Assembly: GCF_003382685.1 (NCBI RefSeq)
Contig: NZ_QLVG01000001.1
Location: 1 to 64,000, forward strand
DNA: 64,000 bases
Direction: 5' to 3'
From: Halorussus litoreus
GTDB lineage: Archaea; Halobacteriota; Halobacteria; Halobacteriales; Haladaptataceae
A program made the position numbers and the translations under genes. Shown here in pieces: positions 21,895-50,796 of this stretch (positions are counted from its first letter, which is position 1; the number at the start of each line of letters is the position of its first letter). A model generated the notes under the pieces. The model was not told the origin of the DNA, searched no databases, and saw only the letters and a list, made by a program, of their open reading frames with translations.

Positions 21895-22377
21895 TCAGCA
21901 ACAGAAGATGAACGGGTACATAAGTGCCACGCGGTCGCCGTCGGCGAGGCGGGTGTCGAGGCCGTCGAGGTGCTCGTTGAACGTGCCGTTGACTGCGACG
22001 CGGGCGTAGGTCCGGGTCTGCTCGCCCTCGGGGTTCTTCTCCCACTTGCCCGGCAGGTCCTCCGGCGCGTCGGCCCACCCGCTCGTGGTCGCTTCCGCCT
22101 CGGTCTCGGCGATAAGGAGGTCCTTCACGTCGAATTGGGCGAAGAAGGCGTCGAGGAGCGCCCGGAGCGTGGTGCCCTCGAAGGTGAACTCCATGCTGGG
22201 CTCGCCGACCGCGGTCCGGACGTGGCCGGTGCAGCGCACCTCGACGGTCGTCTCGGTCGAGCTCGCGGACTCCTCCTCTCTCGCAGGATACTTCGCCTGC
22301 TCGCCAGCCCCTTGGCTGCGCTCGCCAACCCCGTCGCCAGTCGACCGCTCGGCGGTCCCCGTGGCTTCCGTCTCCAT
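21895..22377 (-). CDS. MoaD/ThiS-like beta-grasp protein ending in Cys-Cys
   Basis: A 160-residue protein from ATG 22377. Residues 1-45 are a low-complexity acidic leader. The rest is a ubiquitin-like beta-grasp domain: VEVRCTGHVRTAVG, MEFTFEGTTLRALLDAFFAQ, then ARVAVNGTF and LADGDRVALMYPFIF, the usual order of MoaD/ThiS strands. Sulfur carriers of this fold end in Gly-Gly, but this protein ends in Phe-Cys-Cys. Thiocarboxylate formation of the MoaD type is therefore unlikely; the Cys pair could bind a metal or carry sulfur directly. It is the first gene of a two-gene operon with the polytopic membrane protein. Confidence 0.7.
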   Translation of the reverse strand: METEATGTAERSTGDGVGERSQGAGEQAKYPAREEESASSTETTVEVRCTGHVRTAVGEPSMEFTFEGTTLRALLDAFFAQFDVKDLLIAETEAEATTSGWADAPEDLPGKWEKNPEGEQTRTYARVAVNGTFNEHLDGLDTRLADGDRVALMYPFIFCC

Positions 22378-22448
22378 GGTCGAAGGTAGGCGTCCCGTCC
22401 GGGAATAGTACGGGCCGAACAAGTTCGGTCGAAGAGCTGCGCTCGCCG

Positions 22449-49107: not shown

Positions 49108-49476
49108 TCACCGCTCTGACGCGCCCACGACGACCGCGTCGCGCACCTCCAGCGCGGCCTCGAACTCCGCCTCGCGGTCCTCGCGCCTGCCGATCCGGAG
49201 GAGTTGCTCGTCGTGCGCGCGGGCCACCGCGTCGCGCTCGCGGTCGGTCCACCCGAGGTCGTCGGCTACCTCGGACCAGAACCCCTCGGGAACGAGGAAG
49301 ACCGCGCGCACCTCGTCCTCGTGCACGCACTCGTACAGCCTGCGGAACTCCTCGGTCCGCGGTTCGAGTTCGCGGCGGGCCTCGGCCACGAGATCGGGCA
49401 CGCGCCGACCGCCCACGCTGGCCTTCGCGGCCGTGAGCACGAGCACCTGCCCTTCGATGGGGTTGTTCTCGGTCAT
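49108..49476 (-). CDS. Hypothetical protein, last gene of the SAMP-like block
   Basis: A 122-residue soluble acidic protein: MTENNPIEGQVLVLTAAKAS, then helices RRLYECVHEDEVRAVFLVPE and GWTDRERDAVARAHDEQLLR. There is no signal peptide or membrane segment. It lies 31 bases downstream of the 94-residue gene on the same strand. I do not recognise it. Confidence 0.65.
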   Translation of the reverse strand: MTENNPIEGQVLVLTAAKASVGGRRVPDLVAEARRELEPRTEEFRRLYECVHEDEVRAVFLVPEGFWSEVADDLGWTDRERDAVARAHDEQLLRIGRREDREAEFEAALEVRDAVVVGASER

Positions 49477-49507
49477 GGTCGCGTCCTCGGAGTCGGTCCG
49501 AGAGAGC

Positions 49508-49792
49508 TCATCCGCCGGCTCGCATCGCTTTGCGCGAGAAGTCCGCGACGAGGTCGTCGAGCGCGTCCTCGTCGCCCTCGAAAACTACAGTGACCTCGGT
49601 GAGCGTCACCGACGGACCGATGGCGACCGTCCCCGAGGAGATGGCGGCGCGCCAGCCGTCGCCGACCACGTCGCCGCCCTCCTCGGGGGTCGCCTCGCCC
49701 GCGTCGCCGGGCTGGATCTCGCCGCCGAGGTTCGAGAGGTAGTGGCGTGCCAGTCGCTCGGTGATGCCCCGGTAGGACTTCTCGACGCGCAT
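49508..49792 (-). CDS. Hypothetical 94-residue protein downstream of the SAMP-like gene
   Basis: A small protein starting MRVEKSYRGITERLARHYLS, with a basic N-terminal helix, then NLGGEIQPGD, GWRAAISSGTVAIGPSVTLT and a mixed alpha/beta end. Its ATG directly follows the stop of the SAMP-like gene (TAG ATG, 49795-49790), so the two are translationally coupled. Coupling suggests a partner of the modifier; the function is unknown. Confidence 0.7.
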   Translation of the reverse strand: MRVEKSYRGITERLARHYLSNLGGEIQPGDAGEATPEEGGDVVGDGWRAAISSGTVAIGPSVTLTEVTVVFEGDEDALDDLVADFSRKAMRAGG

Positions 49793-50107
49793 CTACTCAC
49801 CTGTCGCTTGCGACGGGAGACTTCCATCCCGAGGTGGACTCCCGCCGGCGACCGGAGGGAAGACGCTCAGCACGTCGCCGTCGGCCAGCGGGGTGTCGAC
49901 CCCGTCGAGGTGGACCACGTCCTTGCCGTTCTTCATGATCGAGAGCTGTTGGCGGAGTTCGCCGTCCTCGAACAGGTTCATGTCGAACTCCTCGGCGAGG
50001 TCGCCGAGCACCTCGCCGACCGCGGTCCCTTCGGGGTACTCGCGTTCGAGCGTCTTCTGGCCGACCGCCTCGCGGAAGTTGGCGAAGAAGCGCAGTTCGA
50101 GTTCCAT
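49793..50107 (-). CDS. Ubiquitin-like small archaeal modifier (SAMP/MoaD family) with C-terminal tail
   Basis: A 104-residue beta-grasp protein: MELELRFFANFREAVGQKTL, DATP-type loop, LSIMKNGKDVVHLDGVDTPL, DVLSVFPPVAGG. SAMP1/SAMP3 and MoaD proteins end exactly at this Gly-Gly, which is adenylated by UbaA for conjugation or sulfur transfer. Here Gly88-Gly89 is followed by 15 more residues (SPPRDGSLPSQATGE), so the di-glycine is not exposed unless a protease trims it, as with ubiquitin precursors. The codons were checked: GCC GGC GGG AGT with no nearby in-frame stop. It is the second of four closely packed genes. Confidence 0.85.
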   Translation of the reverse strand: MELELRFFANFREAVGQKTLEREYPEGTAVGEVLGDLAEEFDMNLFEDGELRQQLSIMKNGKDVVHLDGVDTPLADGDVLSVFPPVAGGSPPRDGSLPSQATGE

Positions 50108-50108
50108 C

Positions 50109-50492
50109 CTATCGCCCCGGCCGGATGCCGTCGCTGACCATGCGGGCGTGGCGCTCGCGGTCGATGCGTTCCGAGAGGTCCTCGTGGTCGTACAGCTGGC
50201 GAAGCAGCGACGCCATCAGGTCGCGCCACGCCATCGCGTAGATGGGCGACTGGCCCCACGCGCGGAGTTCGGCCACGAAGTCGTCGTACTGCTCCCACCG
50301 CTCCTCGAACCGTTCGAGCACGTCGACCACCGCGCCCGCGGCGTCGTCGTCGCTCTCGGCGTCCTCGATGGCGCGGTTGAGCCGTCGCTCCCAGCCGTCG
50401 ACGGCCTCCCGCATGTCGCGGGCGGCGTCCTCGCCGTCGGCCGGTAGCGACTCCACGATGGGGTCGGGTACGGACAGCGTTATCTGCTCCAT
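50109..50492 (-). CDS. Hypothetical helical protein, first gene of the SAMP-like block
   Basis: A 127-residue protein from ATG 50492 (MEQITLSVPDPIVESLPADG); nine further upstream codons are possible but not signal-like. The sequence is almost all charged helix (RLNRAIEDAESDDDAAGAVV, RFEERWEQYDDFVAELRAWG). Its stop (50109-50111) is one base from the SAMP-like start, so the two are translated together. There is no recognised family. Confidence 0.7.
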   Translation of the reverse strand: MEQITLSVPDPIVESLPADGEDAARDMREAVDGWERRLNRAIEDAESDDDAAGAVVDVLERFEERWEQYDDFVAELRAWGQSPIYAMAWRDLMASLLRQLYDHEDLSERIDRERHARMVSDGIRPGR

Positions 50493-50559: not shown

Positions 50560-50757
50560 CGGTTCGTGACGGGTTCCGTGCGGTCGCGGTCGCAGTTGCG
50601 GCTGTGGTCGCGGTTGCGGGTGCGGTCGCAGTTGCGGCTGCGCTCGCCGTTCTCATTTGTTCAACGATAGCAGCGGTCGCGGTAGCGGTAGCAGTGCGAG
50701 TGGGGTTGAGTTGCGGCCGGGATTGGAGTTGCGGCCGGGATTGGAGTTGCGGCCGGC
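50560..50757. repeat. Low-complexity hexamer array and 18-base tandem repeat
   Basis: 50560-50690 is built from degenerate GYGGTCGCRGTTGCG-like hexamer repeats. 50708-50725 and 50726-50743 are exact copies of GAGTTGCGGCCGGGATTG, with a third partial copy at 50744-50757. It lies between the SAMP-like block and the stop of the beta-helix gene and has no coding explanation. Confidence 0.85.
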
Positions 50758-50796
50758 TTGCGGTTTCTTCGGGCCGATAATCGAAAAGCGACGCGA

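Follow-up and report, generated by a model that had tools for sequence, protein, structure and literature searches.

A SAMP3-type protein of Halorussus litoreus with residues beyond its di-glycine is a likely precursor, and related haloarchaeal loci carry other peptides or a partner protein in the same position

Within the window, the 64,000-nucleotide stretch of the Halorussus litoreus genome analysed here, one gene encodes a ubiquitin-like protein of the SAMP3 type that continues for 15 residues beyond its di-glycine. We consider it likely that this is a SAMP3 precursor or fusion-type protein that is trimmed after the di-glycine, probably by JAMM1; this reading draws on comparisons of SAMP3 loci across the Haloarchaea. 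The gene belongs to a row of small genes on the minus strand, in the order A, SAMP3, C and D:

50109..50492, minus strand: gene A (127 aa), a conserved haloarchaeal protein with the motif ELRAWGQSPIYA
49841..50107, minus strand: ubiquitin-like core of the SAMP3 type (89 aa), ending in FPPVAGG, recognized by profile matches and the invariant motif
49841-49846, minus strand: the two glycine codons of SAMP3
49796..49840, minus strand: 15-residue tail SPPRDGSLPSQATGE after the di-glycine, with serine at P1', from the translated open reading frame
49793..49795, minus strand: TAG stop codon of SAMP3, abutting the ATG of gene C
49508..49792, minus strand: gene C (94 aa), ending in a conserved KAMRAGG; predicted counterpart of the C-terminal domain of 1v8c
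49108..49476, minus strand: gene D (122 aa), linked to gene C across loci

The SAMP3 reading frame (50107-49793, minus strand) encodes 104 amino acids, ...SVFPPVAGG followed by SPPRDGSLPSQATGE and then the TAG. Its translation, together with profiles that end at residue 89, bears out the observation in an earlier note on this DNA that a SAMP/MoaD-like protein here runs 15 residues past FPPVAGG. The gene spacing is also as described there, with a single base between the end of gene A (50109) and the start of SAMP3 (50107), and with the SAMP3 stop adjoining the start of gene C. The ATG of gene C (49792) follows the TAG directly and in the same frame, and is preceded by a purine-rich stretch, AGGTGAG; a gap of 31 bases separates gene C from gene D. 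Most loci of the family have this arrangement, in which the gene C ATG comes immediately after the SAMP3 stop and is closely preceded by purine-rich sequence. The region between gene A and its next neighbour includes a low-complexity stretch (50560-50760) with repeats of the GCGGTCGCG/GTTGCGG type and near-identical GGGATTGGAGTTGCGGCC units.

The window protein matches the Pfam ThiS profile (59.2 bits; cut-off, 22.5) and the NCBIfam SAMP1 model (84.9 bits; cut-off, 60) over residues 4-89, and both matches end at the second glycine; profile coverage of the whole domain places it in the SAMP / MoaD-ThiS β-grasp family. Its best solved relative is 2m19 (HVO_2177; E = 3.9e-26), whereas SAMP1 (3po0) reaches only 2e-6. 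HVO_2177 of Haloferax volcanii is SAMP3 (PMC4500146), and the window protein falls into the SAMP3 orthologue group, being closer to HVO_2177 than to SAMP1 and lying in the A-SAMP3-C-D context. The two proteins have orthologous cores by sequence and fold and an identical FPPVAGG end, and in a fold comparison 2m19 shares 61-63% identity with a fused haloarchaeal relative. Covalent conjugation of SAMP3 has been demonstrated in H. volcanii only, where it depends on UbaA and the isopeptide bond is formed by the C-terminal glycine (PMC7305310). HVO_2177 stops at the di-glycine, whereas the window protein runs 15 residues further; the di-glycine is not the C-terminus of the encoded protein, and only a processed form would end there.

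A class-wide search of the Haloarchaea found a SAMP3-type match in 256 of 292 genomes. We merged 110 loci from this search with 80 found via gene C and with the Halorussus loci, which gave 158 distinct SAMP3 loci. The motif reads FPPVAGG in 157 of these and FPPIAGG in the remaining one. After the di-glycine there is nothing at 78 loci, a tail of 1-4 residues at 31 and one of 5-47 residues at another 31, and at 18 loci the frame runs on into gene C. Tails vary in length (0-47 residues) and in sequence, close species included, and tails or fusions are spread over at least 19 genera. On the class-wide core tree, which is resolved by few columns, the long-tail or fusion state changes about 20 times, with at least 7 of the changes forced by well-supported branches. 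A di-glycine kept at 158 of 158 loci and followed by an unconserved C-terminal extension is a pattern of ubiquitin-like precursors.

Tails also come and go among the closest relatives. Of the 28 genomes of the family, 26 contain gene C, and immediately upstream of its best copy there is always SAMP3. In both outgroup genera, SAMP3 ends at the di-glycine in every case. Within Halorussus, 7 of 18 species lack a tail and the other 11 have tails of 8-22 residues (for example, SPPRDGSLPSQATGE, SVRPDASADTGG, SYRPETTT and SLDARTEG), which can be aligned between the nearest species only. In a tree built from A, SAMP3, C and D, the nearest and supported sister of the window organism is Halorussus halobius (96/94), the SAMP3 of which has no tail, so the tail was gained or lost recently. 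The tail state changes about 4 times within this family tree, 3 of the changes being forced by well-supported branches. Judged by these comparisons, the window tail is young and unconserved, yet real and recurrent.

A tail specific to SAMP3 alone is ruled out, because two other groups of MoaD paralogues are also occasionally tailed. The SAMP1 orthologues of the same genomes, which serve as a control, end at the di-glycine in 26 of 27 cases (one is tailed), and within Halorussus tails are found on 11 of 18 SAMP3 proteins versus 1 of 17 SAMP1 proteins (Fisher p = 0.0009). In a third MoaD group, 3 of 13 proteins are tailed, among them the window genome's own copy (AGHSTC). This copy, which is adjacent to an aldehyde oxidoreductase (AOR) gene (L003; G000:C22:47985-48239), reads ...TPIHGG-AGHSTC, and its counterparts in two Halorussus relatives have tails of 11 and 24 residues. 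The window itself contains a second MoaD-like protein (21895-22422, minus strand) with a partial ThiS profile match, which ends in ...YPFIFCC and has no di-glycine; in several Halorussus genomes, relatives of this protein are encoded some 1.5 kb away from the SAMP3 block.

The 18 loci that run on into gene C are natural fusions in which the SAMP3 di-glycine is joined to protein C by a hydrophilic linker that is 8-51 residues long. ATG, GTG and TTG are all absent from the linker in 11 of the 18, which leaves a single polypeptide as the sole product, from which the glycine can be freed only by cutting. AlphaFold2 models a Halopenitus fusion (L068; 67-row alignment A3) as two domains with a pLDDT of about 95 and a pTM of 0.50, and places residues 94-98, just after the di-glycine, below a pLDDT of 50. 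The low pLDDT after the di-glycine and the pTM suggest that the junction is exposed and that the two domains are not docked onto each other.

The best PDB match of the whole fusion model is 1v8c (Foldseek rank 1; E = 3.8e-13; 190 columns, both domains), a 'MoaD-related protein' of Thermus thermophilus in which a MoaD domain is followed by a domain that Pfam calls DUF1952, with FPPVAGG inside the chain. Comparison of the model with 1v8c by VIA gave a Z of 15.0 over 150 residues (model residues 3-177); the two structures superpose with an overall rmsd of about 13 Å, presumably because their domains are set at different angles. In predicted structure, gene C matches the C-terminal half of 1v8c both in fold and in its place in the domain order, and by this model gene C is a stand-alone counterpart of that domain. 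Structure comparison alone found the relationship: PDB sequence searches with the single gene C and with an 11-row profile did not retrieve 1v8c, and the DUF1952 profile (PF09189) had no match to gene C at the locus even at E ≤ 10, nor through a genome search.

Protein C has a di-glycine of its own. It ends in RAGG at 158 of 160 loci, and this di-glycine end is strictly terminal at 159 of 160; in the window, the RAGG (49508-49520, minus strand) stays terminal, unlike the often-tailed di-glycine of SAMP3. In the AlphaFold2 model this di-glycine closes a helix and is not part of a flexible tail. A more far-reaching proposal, to which we give little credence, is that SAMP3 and protein C make up a two-part module, also present in Thermus, that can be split by cleavage: a JAMM cut at GG/(S,A,T,G) would free both parts in equal amounts and act as a maturation switch. 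Protein C, with its RAGG end and its fold other than β-grasp, would then serve SAMP3 as a dedicated acceptor or partner, or would itself be another carrier with a glycine end.

The earlier note had suggested that two neighbouring proteins may be a protease, partner or substrate of SAMP3. Searches of Pfam and NCBIfam with genes A, C and D gave no match above cut-off and no protease family, which leaves the protease role without support; gene C, which folds like the 1v8c domain, is not the protease. A role as partner has support in the case of gene C, given its natural fusion to SAMP3 at 18 loci. Gene D is linked to gene C at about 75-77 of 81 loci, and gene A lies upstream of the SAMP3-C pair at about 50 of 81. 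The AlphaFold2 model of gene D is confident (pLDDT, 92.7), and a Foldseek search of the PDB with it returned no match at E ≤ 0.001. An AOR-like reading frame occurs at 33 of 81 loci, at scattered distances and orientations. With this placement, and with the AOR of the window genome adjoining another MoaD paralogue, we dropped a link to AOR or to a tungsten cofactor.

The residue directly after the di-glycine (P1') is constrained wherever the extension is long. Across 49 long tails and linkers, P1' is S (16), A (16), T (7), G (5), C (2), V (2) or I (1). The residues D, E, K, R, H, Q and N never occur there (0/49), and at the next five positions they make up 27-53%. Small residues (S, A, T or G) occupy P1' in 44 of 49 cases versus 23.3 expected from the same tails, and none of 20,000 random draws was as high; the threshold for a long tail (5 residues) was picked after the data were seen. 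With one tail per genus (19 genera) the test gives p = 0.0001-0.0006. The pattern was spotted in a first set of loci, and the 25 rows fetched later have 21 S, A, T or G and no charged residue. Tails of 1-4 residues are without this constraint (P1' charged or amide in 14 of 31; Fisher p = 2e-7 versus long tails), and either they are removed in another way or the constraint at P1' has another cause. Very short SAMP3 tails (such as those at loci L055, L060, L074 and L186) often start with R, E, Q or H; long tails never do. A sequence constraint at the cleavage junction is a further property of ubiquitin-like precursors, and the conserved di-glycine, free-running extension and constrained P1' are, at the level of sequence, the trace expected of a proteolytic maturation site.

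Activation of the UbaA/MoeB type adenylates a terminal glycine, so a tail or protein C must come off first. The window genome encodes one ThiF/UbaA-type enzyme and a JAMM protein with an intact HSHP...SATD motif. JAMM was found in 28 of 28 genomes of the family and in all 19 genomes of another set, picked because they have tails or fusions (18 from other genera); its presence does not discriminate, because essentially every haloarchaeon has it. The role of the C-terminal glycine of MoaD has been summarized previously, along with a list of natural fusions of ubiquitin-like proteins to MoaE (PMC4443979). HvJAMM1 of H. volcanii cuts a linear SAMP1-MoaE fusion exactly after the di-glycine, in vivo and in vitro, and also removes SAMP3 from SAMP3-MoaE conjugates (PMC4443979). 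The JAMM of Caldiarchaeum subterraneum (CsJAMM) cuts SAMP precursors (PMC6043591).

We hypothesize that mature SAMP3 is the 89-residue β-grasp core ending in VAGG, and that the 15 residues beyond it form a disordered, dispensable peptide, which would have to be cut off after Gly89 before the single E1 (UbaA) activates the glycine. The likeliest cutter would be a desampylase of the JAMM1 type, the gene for which lies at another place in the genome. Among related lineages, the slot after the di-glycine holds nothing, other short peptides or a linker with protein C, and a cut in a SAMP3-C fusion would free SAMP3 and C in equal amounts. Cleavage itself, JAMM1 as the cutter and a product that conjugates or carries sulfur are what we infer for the window protein. 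The earlier note had left open whether this is a trimmed precursor or a modifier that cannot conjugate. The invariant di-glycine, unconstrained tail, obligate fusions and constrained P1' give good support to the precursor, and the non-conjugating modifier is disfavoured because the di-glycine is kept at 158 of 158 loci.

Other explanations account for part of these observations. Tailed SAMP3 might stay unprocessed and work non-covalently, for instance as a partner or chaperone of protein C, with tails merely tolerated; tails and fusions have arisen many times, and protein C is encoded beside SAMP3 or fused to it, as this explanation would have it. However, nothing would then hold the di-glycine, although all 158 loci, the 18 fusions included, have retained VAGG or IAGG. 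Nor would it explain the avoidance of charge after the di-glycine (0/49), and the conjugation of H. volcanii SAMP3 through its C-terminal glycine, which depends on UbaA (PMC7305310), also speaks against it; we judge it improbable. The tail could instead reflect neutral drift of an operon junction kept for translational coupling to gene C, with non-specific peptidases removing it and no dedicated maturation. The close abutment of the SAMP3 stop and the gene C ATG behind a purine-rich stretch in most family loci would fit such drift, as would the lack of a P1' preference in tails of 1-4 residues, but in fusions, the linkers of which reach 51 residues, an endoprotease has to cut at the di-glycine, and the P1' constraint in long tails implies a cut that is aware of sequence. 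Drift is an unlikely account of the tails.

Two further possibilities concern the window locus itself. Readthrough of the TAG would yield some SAMP3-C fusion in the window organism, in which gene C lies in frame directly after the stop, and true fusions exist elsewhere. In six Halorussus relatives, however, gene C is in another frame or behind a TGA, and gene C has its own ATG behind AGGTGAG; we rejected readthrough, which is very improbable, because the frame is not conserved among relatives. An assembly or sequencing error, raised in the earlier note as a base error near the di-glycine, is hardly credible. That note had named, as findings that would refute its observation, a stop directly after the di-glycine in close relatives (a sign of such an error) or a lack of conservation of the tail or the neighbouring genes; the tail is indeed not conserved, and the nearest sister, Hrs. 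halobius, does stop there. No assembly error follows from this, since many lineages have tails, and these differ in sequence. In the stretch tested, one single-base change only, an inserted T (gene position 267), would give the same stop in the window. Tails of unrelated sequence are present in ten further Halorussus species, which makes a sequencing error implausible, and tails or fusions occur in at least 19 genera. Maturation of a SAMP3 precursor by a cut after the di-glycine is the reading that we prefer.

Precursors of the ubiquitin type and of SAMPs are already known, as are fusions of ubiquitin-like proteins to MoaE that are cut by JAMM. In the open literature searched we found no prior description of SAMP3 precursors in much of the Haloarchaea, their tails gained and lost repeatedly, of natural SAMP3-GG-linker-C fusions with the architecture of Thermus 1v8c, or of a small-residue rule at P1'; the SAMP3-C fusion and its junction signature appear to be undescribed so far. 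Haloarchaeal SAMPs are the model of a ubiquitin-like modification system that lacks E2 and E3. The H. volcanii SAMP3 of solved structure needs no trimming, since the encoded protein stops at its glycine. In a sizeable fraction of haloarchaea the encoded SAMP3 is instead a precursor or a fusion. If our reading is correct, a JAMM maturation step would be obligatory in species with tails or fusions, and JAMM would be a processing enzyme besides a desampylase. The slot after the di-glycine, with its changing peptides or partner protein, would then be a natural record of how precursors of the ubiquitin type evolve. The maturation reading is directly testable with existing haloarchaeal genetics.

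Eukaryotic ubiquitin, SUMO and NEDD8 are made as precursors in which a conserved di-glycine is followed by a short, fast-evolving tail that a protease removes. The SAMP3 proteins resemble them in this layout, but the eukaryotic precursors use different proteases and are not fused to a MoaD-related partner. The SAMP precursors of C. subterraneum (PMC6043591) are closer, being likewise archaeal SAMP precursors cut by JAMM; they come from another phylum, their cleavage is experimental whereas for SAMP3 it is deduced here, and recurrent tail turnover or fusion to a partner is not described for them. The SAMP1-MoaE (MoaD-MoaE) fusions cut by HvJAMM1 or DRJAMM likewise consist of a ubiquitin-like protein, a di-glycine and a partner that is released exactly after the di-glycine, whereas in the SAMP3 fusions, which are natural in haloarchaea, the partner is protein C and not MoaE. 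In the literature searched we found no report of processing of Thermus 1v8c, which differs in being bacterial and in being fused with hardly any linker. The link between this protein and the haloarchaeal SAMP3-C loci places an orphan domain in context.
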